A stretch of 64,000 nucleotides of DNA, taken from a virus. Positions within the stretch are counted from its first letter, which is position 1. Every line of letters begins with the position of its first letter. Below, piece after piece: positions 21,689 to 38,931 of this stretch. The stretch spans positions 171,594 through 235,593 of IMG/VR virus record IMGVR_UViG_3300026518_000006. One strand, given 5' to 3'. A program made the position numbers and the translations under genes. The notes under the pieces were generated by a model. That model worked only from the letters and a program-made list of their open reading frames with translations, searched no databases and was not told the DNA's origin.

Positions 21689-22021
21689 TTAATCTCTAAC
21701 ATCTTTCACACGGAGTCCATCAACTCTGTCTTCTGGTACCATTAAGTATTTTTCATCACCCTCGCTTCTAATCATTTCCAAATCAAAAGACGCTTGAGGG
21801 GCAAAAAATACTTGTTGACCAATCTCAAATTTTTTACAGTCAGGTCCTTTGCTTACGATGATGCCTGTGGATGGTCTGTCTGTTACGACTGATGGTTTTG
21901 ACGCTGTTATGATTATCCCTGAAGGGCTCTCTTTTTTTGTCATATCGGGTTTGTTTTTAACCACTAATAAATTGTCTTGTGGAGCAAACTCATACCACTC
22001 TAAATAACCTGTTTCAGTCAT
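21689..22021 (-). CDS. GroES-like co-chaperonin (T4 gp31-like)
   Basis: The product has 110 residues. 'EFAPQDNLLVVKNK' resembles the GroES first strand, 'ESPSGIII' stands where GroES has its mobile-loop hydrophobic tripeptide, and 'STGIIVSKGPDCKKFEIGQQVFFAP' matches the central G-x-V...G...V barrel core. T4 gp31 replaces GroES so that GroEL can fold the large capsid protein. Assigned by pattern. Confidence 0.65.
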   Translation of the reverse strand: MTETGYLEWYEFAPQDNLLVVKNKPDMTKKESPSGIIITASKPSVVTDRPSTGIIVSKGPDCKKFEIGQQVFFAPQASFDLEMIRSEGDEKYLMVPEDRVDGLRVKDVRD

Positions 22022-22088
22022 ATAATTTCCTTTTTATATAATTTGTATAGCAGTATAATAAAAAATGTTTAAATTGGTCTTAAACAAT

Positions 22089-23940: not shown

Positions 23941-24219
23941 TTACCATACCTCTACCGTTATTTTTTTGGAGACGAGTTTGTTTCCGAATTTTTCTTTATA
24001 CAGACGATAGGCTATTGAACTACCATTCAGCCTCATAGCGACTTTGCTCACTCTGTCTGTATGAATAATTTCTGTTTTTGCACCAACAGTCTTTTGGAGG
24101 TTAAAGGCACTATCTCTCATATCACAAAAATATACATCCAAATCCACACCCTCTGTATCAACTATTTTCTCGTTTTGGTTTATTACAGGTTTTATTACAG
24201 GTTTTATTACAGGTTTCAT
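23941..24219 (-). CDS. Small early protein with N-terminal KPVI repeats
   Basis: The product has 92 residues. It begins with three KPVI repeats encoded by a 12-bp tandem repeat (24182-24215). The rest ('SKVAMRLNGSSIAYRLYKEK') is unassigned. It overlaps the upstream gene by 4 bases. Confidence 0.55.
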   Translation of the reverse strand: MKPVIKPVIKPVINQNEKIVDTEGVDLDVYFCDMRDSAFNLQKTVGAKTEIIHTDRVSKVAMRLNGSSIAYRLYKEKFGNKLVSKKITVEVW

Positions 24220-24401
24220 CTCTTGTCCTTTATCTCTATTTTGAAGTTTTTGTTGTCAGGAGATAGCATAAGTCCGTAGGTACCATATAGAGATTGAGTG
24301 AGTTTATCTACTTCACACATCGCTTTGTGCTCTTTTCCATTTCTTTCAAAAGTTATATATGCCCTTTGAGACTTTATCTCATTGATGTTTCGTCTTTTCA
24401 T
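24216..24401 (-). CDS. Small early protein, unknown
   Basis: The product has 61 residues, basic ('MKRRNINEIKSQRAYITFER'). First gene behind the early promoter at 24430, with the standard AAAGGATTGAAATG leader. Family unknown. Confidence 0.6.
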   Translation of the reverse strand: MKRRNINEIKSQRAYITFERNGKEHKAMCEVDKLTQSLYGTYGLMLSPDNKNFKIEIKDKR

Positions 24402-24429
24402 TTCAATCCTTTATCTCTTTTTATACCTG

Positions 24430-24458
24430 ATTATACAATAATCTTTAATAGAAGTCAA
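24430..24458 (-). promoter_or_regulatory. Early sigma-70 promoter, family copy 5
   Basis: Minus-strand TTGACT-N17-TATAAT, 29 bases before the ATG at 24401, with the palindromic terminator at 24490 upstream. Confidence 0.85.
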
Positions 24459-24489
24459 GTGTTTTGAGAGATTTTTGAGTAGTTTTGAA

Positions 24490-24516
24490 GATTTTATTTT
24501 TCAAAAAAGTAAAATA
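24490..24516. terminator. Palindromic terminator, family copy 4 (imperfect)
   Basis: GATTTTATTTTTC...AAAAAGTAAAAT, one mismatch relative to the perfect copies, between divergent units. Confidence 0.55.
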
Positions 24517-24610
24517 TTTGAAAGAGGTTTAAAACAAGACAAATTAAGTCTTATTTAAGACAGTATTAATTTTTTATAAGTATAATGCGTAAAATTACAA
24601 AAGGAACACT

Positions 24611-25744
24611 ATGGCTTGTTCATTAGAGGGTGGGTGTGGTAGCTCATCAGAAAGTATTCATATAGATATCAATACTACTAGCATTTGTAATATTGCTTGT
24701 ACTTATTGTTCAGAGGGAAATGAGTGTGGTTTGAGTACTCTATATATGGGGAATACTGAGGTAAAAGTAGAAGACTTGATTAAAAAATTAGGCAAAGACC
24801 CCGCTAAACATAAGACTATAAATTTTTGGGGGGGAGAGCCTTTTGTAAATTTTGATTTCTGCAAAGCTATTATAGACGGTTTTAAAGATGACAAAACATT
24901 TAGTTTCTTTTTTTATACCAATGGGTTGTATATACCAAATTATATCGACCAATTAAAGCGATGGAATGAAGAATTCGGGAAAGAGTTAAACGCTGATGGA
25001 CAAAATAGATTGTATCTTCAAATAAGTTATGATGGGCGACACCTCACAAATACAGTGAGAGTGGATAAAGGCGGTCACGGCACTGCTGATAGAGTTGAAA
25101 AGGCATATAAATTACTAAAAGAAAACAATATAGGAACTTCATTAAAAGCAGTGATTAGCACCGATGGTTTTCCATATCTTTTTGAAAGCTTTAAAGATTT
25201 ATATGAGCTTCAAGGTTTTTATTCACCAACACCTGATTTATGGTCTGATAGAAGTGAAGAAGAGTTCAATACTGATTTAGAAATACTTGGAAAAGAGCTT
25301 GAGAAGATAGCAAAGTATATATACCAAAATGATTTGAGTCCTGAAGTATTTAGTTGGTTTGCTAAATCAAGAGCGATTTGTAGTACAGGTGCGGGTATGC
25401 TTAGTATAGACCTTGATGGTGGCATATACCCTTGTCACGCAGGTATGTATGGTGAAAGCGAAGAGCATAAAATAGGAGAGCTTGAAGATTGGGAACATAT
25501 TAGAGAAAATGTTATGGATGACTTTAAAAAAATTAATACCAATCTTCCATTGGAATGTCAAACTTGTGATGTAAATTATTGTATGAAGTGCCAAATATCA
25601 AACTACGCAAAATCTACAAAAGATACATACGAGGAAAGATTTACAGATTATCAAGCAAATTGGCAGGTTTGCAAAATATTTAAAATGAACGACAAATATA
25701 ATAAAACACTGAGATATGCAATGACACAAAAAGGATTGAGATGA
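24611..25744 (+). CDS. Radical SAM/SPASM enzyme 1
   Basis: The product has 377 residues. The [4Fe-4S]-AdoMet motif is C26-N-I-A-C30-T-Y-C33, followed by 'INFWGGEPFVNFDFCKAI' (GGE motif) near 78. The C-terminal part has Cys in 'YPCHAGMYG' and 'CQTCDVNYCMKCQISNYA', plus a last Cys in 'NWQVCKIF', the spacing of a SPASM domain with auxiliary clusters, as in anSME and peptide-maturing enzymes. First gene of the island. Substrate unknown. A likely sigma-70-like promoter lies in the 70 bases upstream (TATAAGTATAATGC). Confidence 0.9.
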   Translation: MACSLEGGCGSSSESIHIDINTTSICNIACTYCSEGNECGLSTLYMGNTEVKVEDLIKKLGKDPAKHKTINFWGGEPFVNFDFCKAIIDGFKDDKTFSFFFYTNGLYIPNYIDQLKRWNEEFGKELNADGQNRLYLQISYDGRHLTNTVRVDKGGHGTADRVEKAYKLLKENNIGTSLKAVISTDGFPYLFESFKDLYELQGFYSPTPDLWSDRSEEEFNTDLEILGKELEKIAKYIYQNDLSPEVFSWFAKSRAICSTGAGMLSIDLDGGIYPCHAGMYGESEEHKIGELEDWEHIRENVMDDFKKINTNLPLECQTCDVNYCMKCQISNYAKSTKDTYEERFTDYQANWQVCKIFKMNDKYNKTLRYAMTQKGLR

Positions 25745-26364
25745 GTGCCAAACTCACATCTCAAGAGCTCAAAGATAAAGCAAATAAAAACAATCCTGAT
25801 GTGCAAATCATAGGTAAATATATAAATTCCAAAACAAACATCTATGTTATTTGTAAATGTGGCAATACGACATCTGTTAGACCCAGTGAATTATATAAAT
25901 CTTGGCGATGTTTTGAGTGTGGTATAAAAGCAAGAAAATACATAAATGGAAATGGAGGATGGTCAACTAAAAGAAATAAAGAAGCTAAAAACAGAATAAT
26001 TCAAAAACACAAAGAATTATTATCCAAAAAATTGCCACATATTGAGTTGGTAGGAGATTATGAGGACAGTAAAACAAAGACAAATTATATCTGTTTTAAG
26101 GTTGGATTAACTCTTTATAAGTATAATGATGTTACGAAATGTATAAAAAATCGCTTTAGAAAAGAGAATAATAATATACTTCTGTTAGGATATATTATAT
26201 TCAAAAATGGAGCGGAAGGTTATGAGTTGGAGCAAAGAATCTTAAATTCTCATCAAAAATATAACTCGGATATTTTGCAATTTGGTGGTAATTCCGAACT
26301 GTTATCTGAGAATATTATTGCTCTCGATAAATACAAATTCATAAAAACAAAGGAAATTATATGA
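25741..26364 (+). CDS. Homing-endonuclease-like protein (zinc ribbon plus GIY-YIG-like C-terminus)
   Basis: The product has 207 residues. A Cys-rich segment 'YVICKCGNTT' ... 'RCFECGIKAR' is a small zinc ribbon. The C-terminal 'NGAEGYELEQRILNSHQKY' and 'FGGNSELLSENI' match the C-terminus of the 236-residue gene at 34201 ('DGVQAYKLEQAVINELKDK', 'FSGYTEIFNEDFI'), a pattern of phage GIY-YIG-related homing endonucleases, with Glu of LEQ as the probable catalytic residue. It is inserted by ATGA overlaps between two radical SAM genes, the second of which carries the coding gap at 26574. Confidence 0.55.
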   Translation: MSAKLTSQELKDKANKNNPDVQIIGKYINSKTNIYVICKCGNTTSVRPSELYKSWRCFECGIKARKYINGNGGWSTKRNKEAKNRIIQKHKELLSKKLPHIELVGDYEDSKTKTNYICFKVGLTLYKYNDVTKCIKNRFRKENNNILLLGYIIFKNGAEGYELEQRILNSHQKYNSDILQFGGNSELLSENIIALDKYKFIKTKEII

Positions 26365-27660
26365 AAACAAACACAACAAACACAACAAACACACAAAAAT
26401 ATACTGAGCTTCAAGACAATAATATAAAAATGAAGTACAATATGAAAACAAACACAACAAACACAACAACCAAAATTAATACCAAAAAACCAACACAAAA
26501 AAGTAAAGGTAATGGATTTAAAACATTTACACTTGAAGTACAAACAACACAAAAATGCAATTTGGGCTGTCCTCGGCTTTGCCGATAAGTTAATTTTTTA
26601 GTATTTAGAGTAAATACCTTATTGCTATGTAGCAAATAGAGACCTTTTTCTTACACCTGAAGTATTTGATAAAAGTTTCGAAAGAATTATTGATTTAATG
26701 CAGAGAAGTGGCACTACCAATTTGAATATTAGTTTTTTTGGTGGCGAGCCTTTATTAAATTTTGAAGTTATCAAGCATATTACTAAAAGAGTTGAAGCAC
26801 TCCCTATTAGAACAGACTTAGTTTTAATTTCAAATATGACTATGATTACAGAAGAAATTTCAGACTTTTTGTTTGAGCATAATATTGGTGTGTCTTGGTC
26901 TTTCGATGGTATGGGGTCTAATGAAACAAGACCACTTTTGCCTATTTTTGAAAACAAGAATAAAGACGGAAAATTATACAATGGAATTTTAGACCTCTAT
27001 GAAGACAAAAAAGACCTTATTTTAAAGCACACCAACGGCTGTAAAATTATGATTTGGGCAGGAAATATGCACCAAATGAGCGAAAATTTAGACTTCTTTG
27101 TTGATTGGGGTTTAACAGGGCTTGATTACTCATTAGTAAGAGATGATGTGTGGACTAAAGATGATTTGATAGCATTTAGAGGACATCTAAGAGACTTAGC
27201 CGATAAGTATATTCAGTACACAAAAAAAGGTGTCCCTTTACATATAGGTTTTTTTGATTTAGCTATTGGTGATAATGTTATTAACTTTACATTTGGCAAA
27301 AGAGATTTCGGGTGTTTTGCAGGTGTAAATGGTGCAAATATGACACCAACAGGAGAGTTCTACCCTTGTGCTAGATTTGCTACAAAATCACTTATGAAAA
27401 TTGATGATGAGTATGATTTTAATTATTGGGCTGAACAATTTAGACCTGCCAATTATGATAAATGCAAGACTTGTGATATTCAACAAGTTTGTAACGCAGG
27501 ATGTACCTTTAGTCAAGTTAGAAATGACAATAAACCTGTGGATAGTGTTTGTGAGTTGTATCATATGATACAAGAAGAAACGATTAGAATAGTACACGAA
27601 TTAAAAGACAACGAGTTGTTTCAAGAACAGGTTATGTCATTATTTAACAATATGGGGTGA
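26361..27660 (+). CDS. Radical SAM/SPASM enzyme 2, interrupted by a 43-nt coding gap
   Basis: Translation from 26361 gives a Thr/Asn-rich leader with a repeated MKTNTTNTT segment, then 'TLEVQTTQKCNLGCP', and stops at TAA 26586-26588. From the second CCT at 26617 a different frame reads PYCYVANRDLFLTPEVFDK and runs to 27660 through 'LNISFFGGEPLLNFEVI', 'MTPTGEFYPCARF' and a SPASM end 'CKTCDIQQVCNAGC' plus 'SVCELY'. Joining at Pro71 yields C66-NLG-C70-P-Y-C73-Y, a perfect radical SAM motif, and about 417 residues with no other lesion. Both halves are therefore under selection or very recently split. See the separate entry for the gap. It is coupled to the endonuclease gene upstream. Confidence 0.75.
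26571..26619 (+). other. Candidate translational bypass element (take-off CCT, 43-nt gap, landing CCT)
   Basis: Take-off codon CCT at 26571-26573 and landing codon CCT at 26617-26619 are identical and 46 nt apart, so the frame changes by +1. The 43-nt gap opens with hairpin TCGGC-TTT-GCCGA (26573-26585), then the in-frame TAA, then an AT-rich linker, then hairpin GTATTTA-GAG-TAAATAC (26601-26617) that abuts the landing codon. T4 gene 60 has the same logic: matched GGA codons, a stop after take-off, a hairpin and a gap of about 50 nt, next to a homing endonuclease gene. Alternative: a palindromic insertion with a 3-bp duplication that inactivates the gene. Confidence 0.6.
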
Positions 27661-27662
27661 TT

Positions 27663-27848
27663 ATGGTGGGTTATATTTTAGAGTTTATATTTGAGTTATT
27701 GATTGGAATAATTACTATTGTAACAGCGTTGGTTATTATTATATTTGGGTTTGTATTTTTGTCTGTGGCAAATCTATTTGATAAATTATCTGATAAATTA
27801 TCTGATAAATTCTTTAGTAAAATAGAAACAAAAAAGGATAAAAATTGA
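27663..27848 (+). CDS. Small membrane protein
   Basis: About 61 residues. Two hydrophobic stretches 'GYILEFIFELLIGIITIVTA' and 'LVIIIFGFVFLSVANLF' make one hairpin or two membrane spans, followed by a tandem DKLSDKLSDK encoded by a 12-bp DNA repeat, and a Lys-rich tail. It overlaps the radical SAM gene upstream (GTG at 27657 is an alternative start). Confidence 0.6.
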   Translation: MVGYILEFIFELLIGIITIVTALVIIIFGFVFLSVANLFDKLSDKLSDKFFSKIETKKDKN

Positions 27849-28063
27849 GTTGTGAAACTGAACACAAAAACATAGATATAAATGATTTAGAAACAATGTT
27901 ACAAGAAGCCCGTAAAGGCAGAGCCAAAATAGACAAACAATATGTAGATTTTGATGAAAAAGGTCATTTGTTTGAATACAATATAGACTTTAATCAGTTT
28001 TTAGATGATATTAATTATATATTTAAAAAACACAAAGAGCGAAGTAGTGGACAAAAGAAATAA
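27845..28063 (+). CDS. Small acidic protein, possible radical SAM partner
   Basis: The product has 72 residues from a TTG start overlapping the previous stop (TTGA), beginning MSCETEHKNIDINDLETMLQ and ending ERSSGQKK. It lies between two radical SAM genes and overlaps the second. A carrier or substrate role is possible but nothing in the sequence proves it. Confidence 0.5.
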   Translation: MSCETEHKNIDINDLETMLQEARKGRAKIDKQYVDFDEKGHLFEYNIDFNQFLDDINYIFKKHKERSSGQKK

Positions 28064-28877
28064 TATCAGCACTCAAAATACCAACCTTGTGTATTTTACC
28101 ACAGCCTGCAATCTAGGGTGCACATATTGTTTCGAACAACTTGACAATATAAAACCAAAGCACATTCCAATACAAGAGTTGTATAAGATTGCAGACCGAG
28201 TTATAGAAGCTGAAGACCCCAACCTACAAACTCATTTTGTATTATATGGTGGAGAAGCAACACTTCGTTGGAAAGAAGCTGAACTCTTTATGGAATATGC
28301 ACACTCAAAAAAGAACAATGTCACATTTAACCTAATCACAAATGGAATATTGTTTTTAGATGATGAGTTTTTTAAGAATTTCTTTAGTAATAAATATTAT
28401 AATAATGGTATGCTCAGTATTGATATCTCATTTGATGGAGATAAGGGTAATGTTGAGCGTGTGTATAAAGATGGTGGAAGTAGTACTGAAGATGTTATTA
28501 TGGTTTTCAGTAAACTTAAAGTTTATAATCTTCGTTGGAGATTACGATACACAATTCACAAAAAAAACATAGATACTTTTGTTTATGATATTAAGAAATT
28601 GATTAAACATTTCAAACCCGAAAGAGTAATAAAAAATGTAGTATATCACGAACTTGATGAAAACGACCTATCTATGTTGGAGAAAGGCTTTGAGGAACTA
28701 AAGAAGAATTGGGATAACAAAAAAGACACTCCTATTTGTGATTTAGTTTGCGATACTTGTGATGGGTGTTCTATGACATTTGAAAACTATGCTAACCATA
28801 CTCCTGTAGGCACAAGCGTACATCCCAAGCAACAAGCTAAAATATATGATACTCTTGATAAACTAAAATATAAATAA
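28047..28877 (+). CDS. Radical SAM enzyme 3
   Basis: I choose the GTG at 28047, 17 bases inside the previous gene, because earlier in-frame starts lie within that gene's coding part. The motif is C21-NLG-C25-TY-C28-F, with 'FVLYGGEATLRWKEA' next. A C-terminal Cys group 'CDLVCDTCDGCSM' may bind an auxiliary cluster or zinc. About 276 residues. Immediately downstream are late virion genes, among them the Cys-rich fibre at 29271, which is a conceivable substrate. Confidence 0.8.
   Translation: MDKRNNISTQNTNLVYFTTACNLGCTYCFEQLDNIKPKHIPIQELYKIADRVIEAEDPNLQTHFVLYGGEATLRWKEAELFMEYAHSKKNNVTFNLITNGILFLDDEFFKNFFSNKYYNNGMLSIDISFDGDKGNVERVYKDGGSSTEDVIMVFSKLKVYNLRWRLRYTIHKKNIDTFVYDIKKLIKHFKPERVIKNVVYHELDENDLSMLEKGFEELKKNWDNKKDTPICDLVCDTCDGCSMTFENYANHTPVGTSVHPKQQAKIYDTLDKLKYK
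28869..28876 (+). promoter_or_regulatory. T4-type late promoter TATAAATA
   Basis: TATAAATA overlaps the last codons of the radical SAM gene, 16 bases before the ATG at 28892; somewhat close, so tentative. Confidence 0.45.
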
Positions 28878-28891
28878 GAAAAGGAAATTTA

Positions 28892-29266
28892 ATGAGCAAA
28901 AATACAACCAGTACTGAAACTACAAATAATAACGAAGTAGCACCTCCATTTGTTGAAGCAACTGAAGAAATTATTGAAATTTCAAAGGTATATGAAGCAT
29001 ATGGGGTTAGAGAGTTATTTCTTGACATCTTGGGGGTTTTTCTTGAGGTGACAAGAAACCTTGGAGCAGAAGCAAAAGGTATAAGTAGAACTGAAGTTAA
29101 AATGAAAATTTTTGAAAAGATGTTTGACATAAATATTGAAGAAGAAATTGAGAAAAAGGTTCAAGAGTATATTCAAAACAATACCTCAGACGCTGATACC
29201 GCAGATGTAGACGCTGAATTATTGGAAAGTATTCGCTCTAATTTCAATGAATATTTAAAGGATTAG
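28892..29266 (+). CDS. Probable virion protein, unknown
   Basis: The product has 124 residues with a Thr/Asn-rich start and helical rest ('FLDILGVFLEVTRNLGAEAK', 'EEIEKKVQEYIQNN'). Behind a late box and 5 bases before the Cys-rich fibre gene. Family not recognised. Confidence 0.5.
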   Translation: MSKNTTSTETTNNNEVAPPFVEATEEIIEISKVYEAYGVRELFLDILGVFLEVTRNLGAEAKGISRTEVKMKIFEKMFDINIEEEIEKKVQEYIQNNTSDADTADVDAELLESIRSNFNEYLKD

Positions 29267-29270
29267 AATT

Positions 29271-30082
29271 ATGAGTGATTGGCTAAAAAATCCATACGGA
29301 ACCCCAGGAGGAGACGAAAAAACTTATTCTTCTGAAGAATTAGCTCAAATGGGGGTAAATATAGGTGAGTTAATCACCAATGAAAAATTCAATTATTTAT
29401 CAGGGAAAGTTAAAAACGAATCTGCAAGAAGAGGTGTGGGGGTACCTGATTATGAGCGAAATGACGGTGAACTTATCACCGCTGTGGATTACAATGTGAT
29501 AATTGACAGAATTAATAATGTGTTGGATATTCCGAGAAACCCTGATGGAGCAGATTTACCACATTTGTCAAATGTTGCTATTGGAGATTTAATAACCGCT
29601 TTAATTCACAATAATATAAAAAACAAGCTTGTTGATGCAGGAAATCAATGTATGTGTAACTGTAATTACTGTGCTTGTAACTGTAATCAGTGCATCTGTA
29701 ACTGTAATCACGCTTGTGTGTGTAACTGTAATTATTCTGATGAACGACTTAAAACAAATATCGTTTATATAGGTGTTTTTTAATGTTTGGTTGGAATTTT
29801 ATAAAGGCATTAAAGCCCGCCAAATATGAGTACTCAAGTGTGGATGATAATCTTGAAATATCGAAAGATGGTAGAACTCATTTTGGAGTTATGGCGCAAG
29901 ATATTGAAGAATACCTGAAAAGTGTTTCTGATGAAGATTTCGCTATAATAGAAAAAGACGAAAACGGGTATATGATGGTAAATTATACCGAGCTGATTGC
30001 CCCTATGATAGCCACTATCCAACAACTTCAAGAAAGAGTGGAAGAACTAGAAATCCAAGTTTCTAACCACTCTTCAAAATAA
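29271..30082 (+). CDS. Cys-rich tail-fibre protein with split S74-type chaperone domain
   Basis: The first reading (29271-29783) has fibre-like text 'NPDGADLPHLSNVAIGDLIT' and then four heptads C-x-C-N-C-N-x, 12 Cys in 29 residues, before 'YSDERLKTNIVYIGVF' and TAA. The second (29783-30082) continues 'GWNFIKALKPAKYEY', 'HFGVMAQDIEEYLK' and a coiled end 'IQQLQERVEELEIQ'. Together they form a complete peptidase S74 intramolecular chaperone domain, which self-cleaves at the Ser of the SDERLK motif after fibre trimerisation. One T missing from, or a -1 slip on, the T6A run at 29775-29781 joins the two frames. Confidence 0.7.
29649..29735 (+). repeat. Four 21-bp repeats encoding Cys heptads
   Basis: Units TGT-x-TGT-AAC-TGT-AAT-x encode C-x-C-N-C-N-[YQH]; the third unit has one extra Ala codon. 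DNA conservation (repeated TGTAACTGTAAT) indicates recent tandem duplication. Confidence 0.85.
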
Positions 30083-34200: not shown

Positions 34201-34911
34201 ATGAGAATTTTATCAAGAGAAGAAATCATAAAAGTTTGCGAAGAAAAGCACGGAAAGAAATACAACTACAGTCTTGTCAAGGATAGTTTAGGTTCAGACT
34301 CAATCCCTATTATTTGTGATAAACACGGTATTTTTAAACTATCTGTAAATTCCCACAAAAGAGGCGCAAGATGTCCCGTTTGTCATCCTCCTAAACTTTC
34401 TAATGAGGAAGTGATAGAGCAATTCAAAAAAGCCAATAATAACCAATACATATATGACATCACTAATTATACAAGCAATCAGACAAAAGTAGAAGTAATA
34501 TGTAAAAAACACGGAGTTTTTACGACATCCCCTGATAACCACAAAAGAGGCAACGGATGTCCTGATTGTGCGATTGATAAGATATATAAAAACAAACCTA
34601 CTTATCTTTACCATCTTAGTATTAATAATAATGGGAAGACGCAATATAAATTGGGGGTGTGTTTGAAGCGTGATTTTGATACAGTTGAAGAGGCTGTTAA
34701 TTACAGATATAGTTATGAAAAGAAGCATAATGTTGAATTTCATATACTTGATTATAAATTATATGATGATGGGGTACAGGCATATAAACTCGAACAGGCT
34801 GTCATAAATGAATTGAAAGATAAACATATACCTAAAAATGAAAGTATTATGTTTAGCGGATATACTGAAATATTTAATGAGGATTTTATATCGGATTTCA
34901 ATTTATTTTAA
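34201..34911 (+). CDS. Free-standing homing endonuclease-like protein
   Basis: The product has 236 residues. Two tandem zinc-ribbon repeats 'IPIICDKHGIF...HKRGARCPVC' and 'VEVICKKHGVF...HKRGNGCPDC' are the nuclease-associated repeats found in many phage homing endonucleases. The C-terminal 'TYLYHLSINNNGKTQYKLGV' with a later 'YKLEQAVINEL' fits a diverged GIY-YIG nuclease. Own leader and spacing of 70 bases from the radical SAM gene. Its C-terminus matches the gene at 25741. Confidence 0.7.
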   Translation: MRILSREEIIKVCEEKHGKKYNYSLVKDSLGSDSIPIICDKHGIFKLSVNSHKRGARCPVCHPPKLSNEEVIEQFKKANNNQYIYDITNYTSNQTKVEVICKKHGVFTTSPDNHKRGNGCPDCAIDKIYKNKPTYLYHLSINNNGKTQYKLGVCLKRDFDTVEEAVNYRYSYEKKHNVEFHILDYKLYDDGVQAYKLEQAVINELKDKHIPKNESIMFSGYTEIFNEDFISDFNLF

Positions 34912-37001: not shown

Positions 37002-37893
37002 TTTTGACTATTTTTATGAAGATGTAGTGAATTATAGCAACGACAACACTATTCAATTATTCATAGACATCACTACAGTTTGCAATCTTACCTGTAGCTA
37101 TTGTTTCGCACGAAAAGAAAAGGATTGGGATGAGGTTTTAGAGACAGAAAGAGTGCAGAAAATTATGACACTAATCAAACAAAGTCCTTATAATTTCAAT
37201 GTATTGTTATTCGGAGGAGAACCACTACTTCATAAAGATATAGAAACGATAATCAATATTATTAAAAAGTCAGATAAAGTAAAGAATATTATGGTGCTTT
37301 CAAACGGGACTTTAAGTGACGGATTGTATGATTTCAAAGATGTGTATTATTGCTTGACACTTCACGAACTTACAGATAAACAAATAGATAAGTTTGTGAG
37401 GCATTGTCATAAAATAGAGCCCGATAAATTGAAGATAAATATACCTTTAAATATTTACAACACTTCACTAAAAAGAGCGTACAAAAAACTAATTCAAGAG
37501 GGCTTTAAAGACAAGATATTTTTCAGTGTTATTTATGATGATGATACTAAAAATATAATACCTCTTCCTGAAATAAGAGAACGCCTTGATTATATCGACT
37601 TTACTATAGATGATAATCACTATCTCAACGGAAAGAGAATGAACTATATGGATTATTTAGATTTGCATTTATCACTAAATCCAAAAAGAGATGTAAAGAC
37701 CTGTTATATTAATGAACTAAACATAGATATTGATGGTAATATAAGTAATGATTGTATGGGTATAAATTCCAACATTTATGATGATGTTTTTTTCTTTAAA
37801 CACTTTAAATTAGGGTATAATTGCACAAAAGAACAATGTAAAGATTGTACAGGAACTATCACCTGTGCTAAAGAGTTACAGGAGAGAAAATGA
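36994..37893 (+). CDS. Radical SAM enzyme 6
   Basis: The product has 299 residues. Motif C30-NLT-C34-SY-C37-F, then 'VLLFGGEPLLHKDIETI'. C-terminal Cys: 'TCYINEL', 'ISNDCMGI', 'NCTKEQCKDCTGTITC', a twitch or SPASM-like auxiliary domain. Overlaps the amidinotransferase gene by 4 bases. Confidence 0.85.
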   Translation: MDNFDYFYEDVVNYSNDNTIQLFIDITTVCNLTCSYCFARKEKDWDEVLETERVQKIMTLIKQSPYNFNVLLFGGEPLLHKDIETIINIIKKSDKVKNIMVLSNGTLSDGLYDFKDVYYCLTLHELTDKQIDKFVRHCHKIEPDKLKINIPLNIYNTSLKRAYKKLIQEGFKDKIFFSVIYDDDTKNIIPLPEIRERLDYIDFTIDDNHYLNGKRMNYMDYLDLHLSLNPKRDVKTCYINELNIDIDGNISNDCMGINSNIYDDVFFFKHFKLGYNCTKEQCKDCTGTITCAKELQERK

Positions 37894-38411
37894 CAGAATA
37901 TGATGAGTTAAAGACTGTAGTAGTTGGAAGAGATTTTGACTGCAACTATATTATTGACAAAGAACTAAAATACTCATTAACATTGAAAGGTGATTTTGAT
38001 TATGATAAATTCTATAATGATATTAAAAAGAATTTAAGAGAGCGAAATGAATCACTTGATAAGTTATCAGAAATATTGGAAAGTAAAGGCGTTAAAGTAT
38101 TTAGACCAAAATACAACTCTTATGATGAGATAGTTGATGACTCAGGTAAAGATGTTGCTGATACTCAGAATTTTGATAGCAATGCCCGGGATATTTTTAT
38201 AGTTATCGAGGATAAAGTGATTATTGCGCCTACATTTAACTCAAGAAGAAATAAGTTATATAAACTCTATGAAAATGTGTTTGAGTATTTGTTGGGAAAA
38301 GGGTATAAAATAATTTATCCTCCTGAAACAAACGGAAAGCGTGATTTCGATTATTACCCTATCACAACTCCTGTTGATTTTTTTGTTGAAAAAGCTCACG
38401 ACTATGTTTGA
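37890..38411 (+). CDS. Amidinotransferase, N-terminal half
   Basis: The product has 173 residues. 'EYDELKTVVVGRDFD', 'LDKLSEILESKGVKVFRPKY' and 'SNARDIFIVIEDKVIIAPTFNSRRN' match the first half of the arginine:glycine/inosamine amidinotransferase fold, including the catalytic Asp before ARD. Reading stops at TGA 38409-38411; the rest of the enzyme is in another frame starting at 38404. See the C-terminal half. Confidence 0.75.
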   Translation: MTEYDELKTVVVGRDFDCNYIIDKELKYSLTLKGDFDYDKFYNDIKKNLRERNESLDKLSEILESKGVKVFRPKYNSYDEIVDDSGKDVADTQNFDSNARDIFIVIEDKVIIAPTFNSRRNKLYKLYENVFEYLLGKGYKIIYPPETNGKRDFDYYPITTPVDFFVEKAHDYV

Positions 38412-38931
38412 GACAGCCAATTTAATCAAAACAAAAGATGGAGTTGTGTTTAATATAAGTAATCATAATCATTATAGTGGTTATCTTTGGTTTAAAGAAA
38501 TTGTTGATTGTGATGTTTTTCCTTGTTTTGTTGATTATGGTCATATAGATGGGGGAATGAATATAGTCAATGATGACTTATTACTATTATGTTTTAACTC
38601 AGACCATATATCTGAATCTGAAATATTAAAAAAAATACCAACACCATTTAAAAAATGTGATGTAATAACGGTTGACAAAAATCCTAAATCATATAAAAGA
38701 AAAACCGATGTATTTTTGGCTTCAAAGGGAGGAATGGAAATAAACAGTTTATCAATAAATCCAAACACTATTATAATATCAAAAAATAAATCTTTAAAAA
38801 AGAAGCTTAATGATAGAAATATAGATGTTATCGAAATGTCGTTAAAACACGATAGACTGTTTAATGGAGGTGTGCATTGTGTTACTGTAGACTTAGAAAG
38901 AAGTGATGATGAATCCACACTATCAATTTAA
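38404..38931 (+). CDS. Amidinotransferase, C-terminal half
   Basis: ATG at 38404 overlaps the stop of the N-terminal half (ATGTTTGA). The product has about 175 residues: 'FETANLIKTKDGVVFNISNH', 'DYGHIDGGMNIVNDDLLL' with catalytic His, and 'NGGVHCVTVDLERSDD' with catalytic Cys. These are the second-half motifs of amidinotransferases. 'FETANL' corresponds to the family's 'FDAAD' just after the break, so nothing is missing. Either a two-chain enzyme made by stop-start coupling or a small frameshift of one functional gene. The product would transfer an amidino group from arginine, for example to an amino sugar. Confidence 0.7.
   Translation: MFETANLIKTKDGVVFNISNHNHYSGYLWFKEIVDCDVFPCFVDYGHIDGGMNIVNDDLLLLCFNSDHISESEILKKIPTPFKKCDVITVDKNPKSYKRKTDVFLASKGGMEINSLSINPNTIIISKNKSLKKKLNDRNIDVIEMSLKHDRLFNGGVHCVTVDLERSDDESTLSI

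Follow-up and report, generated by a model that had tools for sequence, protein, structure and literature searches.

Can a radical SAM gene that is broken off inside its own catalytic motif still give rise to a complete enzyme? The gene in question, which we term radSAM2 (26361-27660), lies in what we call the window, the whole 64,000-base stretch of DNA analysed here (approximately 32% G+C), which forms the final part (171594-235593) of a virus record of 235,593 bases. Enzymes of the radical SAM superfamily (Pfam PF04055) bind an iron-sulfur cluster through the motif CxxxCxxC. Read conventionally from 26361, radSAM2 ends within this motif (C66 and C70 before the break, C73 beyond it), as the sequence-only reading that preceded this work had claimed. 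Our answer, to which we assign a probability of roughly 0.57 and which is inferred from sequence alone in the absence of RNA or protein data, is that radSAM2 is expressed as one radical SAM enzyme via programmed translational bypassing.

Tail-fibre genes are present in the window, and homologues of radSAM2 were found in 27 phage records, 15 of which are Campylobacter phages of the CP220 kind. The source is therefore a large phage of approximately 236 kb that is akin to the T4-like Campylobacter phages (CP220-type). Radical SAM genes are densely clustered between 24600 and 40700 of the window, together with glycosyltransferase-like and amidinotransferase genes, and this cluster resembles that of Campylobacter phage CP220. 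One tail-fibre gene (29271-30082) has a -1 break, with a TAATG overlap, at a T6 run (29776-29781), and this break splits its Peptidase_S74 chaperone domain. The genes and gene parts at the locus are as follows:

24611-25744, plus strand: radSAM1, encoding a radical SAM protein of 377 aa (Pfam PF04055, 5.2e-11)
25741-26364, plus strand: homing-endonuclease-like gene of 207 aa, its ends overlapping both neighbours (PHROG 559 and 681)
26350-26354, plus strand: Shine-Dalgarno-like AAGGA for the start at 26361 (anti-SD pairing -4.7 kcal/mol)
26361-26588, plus strand: upstream ORF of radSAM2, with cysteines 1 and 2 of CxxxCxxC (alignment to the homologues L004 and L003)
26361-26516, plus strand: N-terminal extension of radSAM2, residues 1-52, with a repeated MKTNTTNTTNT segment (homologue comparison)
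26617-27660, plus strand: downstream ORF of radSAM2, with cysteine 3 and the rest of the enzyme (PHROG 1802 radical SAM, 5.7e-32)

The sequence-only reading had asked for an alignment to uninterrupted homologues, and this was run. A profile search of viral contigs returned 59 loci. The sequence could be followed across the cysteine motif in 51 of these homologues (35 distinct sequences), none of which is interrupted. The nearest, L004 and L003, read CNLGCPYCYVAN and CSMRCPYCYETF at this point, with no gap. When the sequence of the window is joined from the CCT codon at 26571 to the identical codon at 26617 it gives CNLGCPYCYVAN, with 12/12 residues identical to L004. Since the homologues are uninterrupted and the joined product matches L004 exactly, radSAM2 in the window carries an insert of 46 nt, which is not a multiple of three and falls between cysteines 2 and 3 of CxxxCxxC. 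That the gene is interrupted in this way is shown directly by the comparison, as is the exact match of the product. The upstream ORF has 75 aa if read conventionally and 71 aa up to the proposed take-off codon, and 346 codons follow the landing codon (59% identity to L003 and 53% to L004). The joined product of 71 + 346 = 417 aa contains CNLGCPYCY, exactly the motif of the homologues, which bears out the earlier claim that a hop would restore this motif and an enzyme of about 417 residues. A T4-type bypass calls for two ORFs in different frames that, once joined, encode the product of an uninterrupted homologue, and radSAM2 passes this test.

The reading frames leave few routes to such a product. 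The upstream frame is closed by the TAA at 26586, and the downstream frame is closed by a TAG at 26599 and a TAA at 26611; no single frameshift can therefore join the two halves of radSAM2. Production of the full enzyme requires a skip from no later than 26585 to no earlier than 26614, either in the RNA or in translation, and this much follows directly from the closed frames. It is unlikely that the halves work as two separate polypeptides because the break divides the cysteine motif: lying between cysteines 2 and 3, it leaves separate halves unable to provide the cluster site, a point in favour of bypassing. The elements in and around the insert are listed below in order of position; any role in bypassing is inferred for each of them.

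26472-26507, plus strand: Lys-rich leader KINTKKPTQKSK, candidate nascent-peptide signal 22-33 residues before the take-off Pro (composition)
26571-26573, plus strand: proposed take-off codon CCT (Pro71), the same as the landing codon
26573-26585, plus strand: take-off hairpin TCGGC-TTT-GCCGA (-6.4 kcal/mol)
26574-26576, plus strand: CGG, the A-site codon while CCT is in the P site, and the rarest sense codon of the phage (33/55,939)
26574-26616, plus strand: gap of 43 nt proposed to be bypassed, missing in all homologues, unique, and with stops in both relevant frames
26586-26588, plus strand: in-frame TAA that ends the unhopped peptide (sequence)
26601-26617, plus strand: landing-side hairpin GTATTTA-GAG-TAAATAC (-2.8 kcal/mol, weak)
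26608-26610, plus strand: GAG precisely 6 nt ahead of the landing codon, a minimal SD-like site at the position it has in T4 gene 60 (sequence)
26617-26619, plus strand: proposed landing codon CCT, with decoding resuming at TAT 26620 and yielding CNLGCPYCYVAN as in L004
26622-26635, plus strand: small post-landing hairpin UUGCU-AUGU-AGCAA, at the site of the 3' stem-loop of T4 (fold)

The two CCT codons, at 26571 and 26617, serve as the matched codons of the T4-type comparison; they lie 46 nt apart with 43 nt between them, and the direct repeat bounding the insert is exactly 3 nt. The take-off hairpin takes in only the final T of the take-off CCT, as its own first base, whereas a T4-type take-off stem-loop includes the take-off codon; the landing-side hairpin runs up to and includes the first C of the landing CCT. 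The positions given in the sequence-only reading for the CCT codons were confirmed, as were the hairpins, the in-frame TAA and the 43-nt gap. Its parallel with T4 required correction in two respects. The TAA at 26586 is the fifth codon after take-off, so that the test of a stop directly after the take-off codon is not met, CGG being found there instead; and no 5' stem-loop was found upstream of take-off, where 26545-26573 folds at only -0.3 kcal/mol. The parallel is extended by two features that the earlier reading did not include, namely the position of the GAG relative to the landing codon, six nt ahead of it, and the Lys-rich leader.

In two null models, in which the gap was replaced by shuffled gaps or by random genomic 43-mers, both hairpins of this length within 2 nt of both junctions were obtained in 3/20,000 and 2/20,000 trials (approximately 0.0001-0.00015). 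The thresholds were set at the observed values, so that the figure is somewhat post hoc and somewhat favourable. The 67-nt region as a whole shows no unusual folding (z = -0.28), and the evidence therefore rests on the placement of the hairpins and not on total stability. With respect to the CGG codon, the only phage tRNA-Arg that we found has the anticodon ACG; it is possible that the rarity of the A-site codon merely follows from the GC-rich hairpin. GAG occurs at a frequency of 0.011 per position (approximately 1%) and its SD pairing is weak (-2.4). The hairpin at 26622-26635 is represented by a near-identical TTGTTATGTAGCAA in the uninterrupted L004 and may only reflect protein coding. The KINTKKPTQKSK leader contains five K/R and no acidic residue, and is new relative to the homologues. 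Among 12-mers of the phage, 2% have at least five K/R and 0.7% have a net charge of at least +5; against the bypass reading, Lys-rich stretches are common in an AT-rich phage. Each of the 35 distinct homologues begins at FT.E... or a little ahead of it, without an N-terminal extension of the radSAM2 kind. The start of radSAM2 (26361-26470) carries a ACAAACACAACAAACAC-type leader repeat, and a stretch similar to this repeat is located on the minus strand at 22018-22048 of the window, close to where another gene begins.

In most of the closer relatives radSAM1 lies directly before radSAM2, with a spacing of -13 to +51 nt; in the window the 207-aa gene lies between the two, with an ATGA overlap with each. 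The claim that a homing-endonuclease-like gene lies directly upstream held (25741-26364), on the strength of remote homology only: the 207-aa protein matches PHROG 559 (HNH endonuclease, 1.7e-11) and PHROG 681 (endonuclease, 2.9e-9), and has no Pfam match. It is 24% identical to a protein encoded at 34201-34911 of the window, which contains a treble-clef zinc finger (Pfam DUF4379), and from the motifs of the 207-aa protein we infer that its C-terminal half is GIY-YIG-like and possibly degenerate. This gene was not found between radSAM1 and radSAM2 in any relative checked; that position is occupied by another radical SAM gene in L031 and by a 72-aa ORF in L050, with no endonuclease. A search of eight relative records gave no match to the gene, although such an empty answer is weak evidence, and no relatives of the 207-aa protein were confirmed in viral contigs or phage records. 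The co-occurrence of the insert with the endonuclease-like gene is an observed result, and the cassette test, that an endonuclease gene be adjacent and present only with the insert, is met by remote homology. That radSAM2 is the target of the endonuclease is an inference.

Endonuclease-like genes are also found elsewhere in this genome. The gene at 34201-34911 is a second one of the same kind, treble-clef/GIY-YIG-like and situated amid radical SAM genes; no relatives of its 236-aa product were confirmed in viral contigs. The large terminase gene (genome positions 141359-146483, minus strand, L011-L012) is in several pieces, and ORFs for GIY-YIG-like and HNH-like endonucleases interrupt what appear to be split inteins, an arrangement resembling 'fractured genes'. 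The third break in the terminase gene, at approximately 142480, has about 225 extra nt and a TAATG overlap without a clear intein. Adjoining the terminase pieces is an ORF that combines zinc-ribbon repeats with a nuclease end of Vsr/EDxHD-like type (genome positions 140500-141327, minus strand).

The insert itself appears to be unique. No copy was found elsewhere in the genome, in viral contigs (searched with the exact 43-nt gap), in phage records or in plasmids, and its absence elsewhere in these collections is an observed result. It is carried by one genome only, with no second strain from which its retention could be judged. An IS200/IS605-type or other small repeated element was rejected on the grounds that there are no further copies and that the genome encodes no Y1 transposase. 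Likewise, a group I or group II intron was rejected, since no Rfam intron or other RNA family matched between 24000 and 29000 of the window at E values up to 1. The take-off and landing DNA patterns gave 3 and 16 matches in viral contigs, none of them in a radical SAM context, and we read these as chance. A census of frame breaks against CP220 and two closer viral records (three reference genomes, 196 reference ORFs with matches) revealed no other bypass sites; the only breaks were those of the split terminase gene and a frameshift at a homopolymer in the amidinotransferase gene. The amidinotransferase gene (37890-38931), a homologue of the pentein family, has a +1 frame break close to two homopolymers, T7 (38378-38384) and A5. 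It is a continuous single gene in CP220, and the break in the window could represent a sequencing error, phase variation or frameshifting.

If the downstream ORF were no longer translated, signs of decay might be sought in its sequence. The window keeps 48/49 of the positions conserved in at least 95% of the other sequences, as intact homologues do, and in a maximum-likelihood tree its root-to-tip length is 0.93, compared with 1.03-1.08 for the sisters L048, L049 and L050. Pairwise identity to L048/L049 is 57-59% for radSAM2 versus 67% for radSAM1, which alone suggested a deficit. However, radSAM1 of the window is the sister of L048+L049, whereas radSAM2 falls outside L048+L049+L050, and the lower identity of radSAM2 is at least partly due to this different position in the tree. 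It is possible that radSAM2 has had a different history from radSAM1, as co-conversion by an endonuclease would give, although this is a hint only, without branch support values. The lack of decay in the downstream ORF is a direct result of these comparisons, but neither the tree nor the conservation data exclude a very recent inactivation.

The mechanism that we propose is inferred at every step. The ribosome would translate the 71-codon upstream ORF and pause with peptidyl-tRNA-Pro on the CCU at 26571, the setting of the pause being provided by the rare CGG and the GC-rich hairpin at the A site. It would then release the mRNA and slide across 43 nt, until the landing-side hairpin and the SD-like GAG halted it. 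Re-pairing on the identical CCU at 26617 and resumption at UAU would give CNLGCPYCY and the enzyme of 417 aa. The insert and the upstream homing-endonuclease-like gene may together form one mobile cassette, in which the insert would confer on the gene immunity to the endonuclease, and bypassing would render the insert harmless. As an inference from sequence the T4-gene-60-like bypass claimed by the earlier reading is supported and has survived every test run, while bypassing itself remains unproven, with no protein or RNA data.

The main rival, which remains possible, is that radSAM2 is a recently killed gene: a small hairpin-ended element, or filler from repair at an endonuclease cut, would have entered radSAM2 and inactivated it, duplicating 3 nt on insertion; nothing would skip the insert, and decay would not yet have begun. 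The 3-nt duplication and the terminal hairpins would suit a very small inserted element as well; with its many other radical SAM genes the phage might tolerate the loss; and the genome is rich in endonuclease genes. Against this, the insert has no counterpart elsewhere in the genome or in viral contigs, phages and plasmids, and the genome encodes no Y1 transposase; the 346 codons are open, with 48/49 conserved positions kept and no increase in rate; and the T4-like details, the GAG at -6 and the codon-phased repeat, would require coincidence.

It is very unlikely that the 46 nt are instead excised from the mRNA as a very small intron. The exact restoration of the frame suits splicing as well as it suits bypassing, but there is no Rfam match (24000-29000, E up to 1), and 46 nt is far too short for any known self-splicing intron. 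An artefact of assembly or sequencing, in which the actual phage either lacks the insert or has it only as a minor variant, is also very unlikely. The locus is represented by a single metagenomic record, and the window contains two homopolymer frame breaks (29776-29781 and 38378-38384) that are perhaps sequencing errors; however, 46 nt of unique sequence with ordered features is unlike a homopolymer error, and the census yielded two frame breaks only. Finally, a programmed frameshift, or two cooperating separate polypeptides, has some precedent in the other split or frameshifted genes of this genome (terminase, amidinotransferase) but is largely refuted by the sequence and all but excluded, given the stops in both frames, a break inside the three-cysteine motif, and a first downstream ATG (26698) that lies 24 residues past the motif.

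Programmed bypassing, the reading that we favour, would if correct make radSAM2 a rare second case in phages. For decades long bypassing in phages and bacteria has been well established for T4 gene 60 only, the Streptomyces phage Hau3 terminase and Prevotella loescheii plaA remaining unproven (PMC5009743), and which of its signals are general is consequently unknown. In the literature searched we found no report of the radSAM2 gene or of a second endonuclease-linked bypass. If our reading is correct, radSAM2 would belong to a second homing-endonuclease-linked bypass cassette in phages, and would support the view that bypassing arises as the price a gene pays for being immune to a mobile endonuclease. 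A bolder reading, which we consider as likely to be wrong as right, is that the phage cassette of homing endonuclease and bypass has had an independent second origin, here with Pro CCU as take-off and landing codon, a rare codon occupying the A site where T4 has its stop, and a hairpin at each end of the gap, within the catalytic iron-sulfur motif of a radical SAM enzyme. If so, bypassing evolves repeatedly, letting mobile endonucleases protect their target genes.

Comparison with the proposed cases of Hau3 and plaA (a 29-nt hop) is limited to the suggestion of bypassing in a phage or bacterium (PMC5009743). The gap in Hau3 is much shorter and centred on UUA, plaA has had no follow-up, and no adjacent endonuclease gene is described for either (PMC5009743). 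The 81 byp elements of Magnusiomyces capitatus mitochondria resemble radSAM2 in being short inserted blocks that are skipped in translation, with a rare or unused codon at the A site (PMC5009743). In contrast to the single phage copy in radSAM2, these are present in many mitochondrial copies and are reportedly independent of mRNA context.

The closest likeness is to T4 gene 60, for which the facts are taken from PMC3014915, PMC5009743 and PMC11194080. Both are phage genes with a short out-of-frame insert between matched codons, a take-off hairpin and a stop in the gap. GAG lies 6 nt 5' of the landing codon in each, so that this test is met (PMC3014915, PMC5009743), and a basic segment of the nascent peptide, in radSAM2 only a candidate signal, precedes take-off by approximately 20-33 residues, the essential KKYK of T4 being about 30 residues from the P site (PMC5009743). 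Sliding in T4 is processive up to 56 nt (PMC11194080), and a gap of 43 nt is therefore feasible. As in the mobA-linked gene 60, an endonuclease gene is situated just upstream and both it and the insert are missing from the uninterrupted genes of relatives; protection against the endonuclease is the role proposed for the insert in T4 (PMC5009743). The differences are equally clear. The radSAM2 codons are CCU/Pro and those of T4 are GGA/Gly, the gap is 43 nt compared with 47-50 nt, and the sequences are unrelated; the host gene encodes a radical SAM enzyme and not a topoisomerase, and the endonuclease-like gene sits between two genes without splitting either. A hairpin is located at the landing junction of radSAM2, which lacks two features important in T4, a stop codon adjoining the take-off codon and a 5' stem-loop. 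As these last two features are missing, we regard radSAM2 as a bypassing variant, which if functional would operate in the manner of gene 60, and not as a homolog of T4 gene 60; neither the two genes nor their inserts are related. If bypassing is confirmed, a case that keeps the matched codons, the take-off hairpin, GAG at -6, the basic leader and the endonuclease neighbour, and lacks the adjacent stop and the 5' stem-loop, would separate the essential features of gene 60 from the accidental ones.
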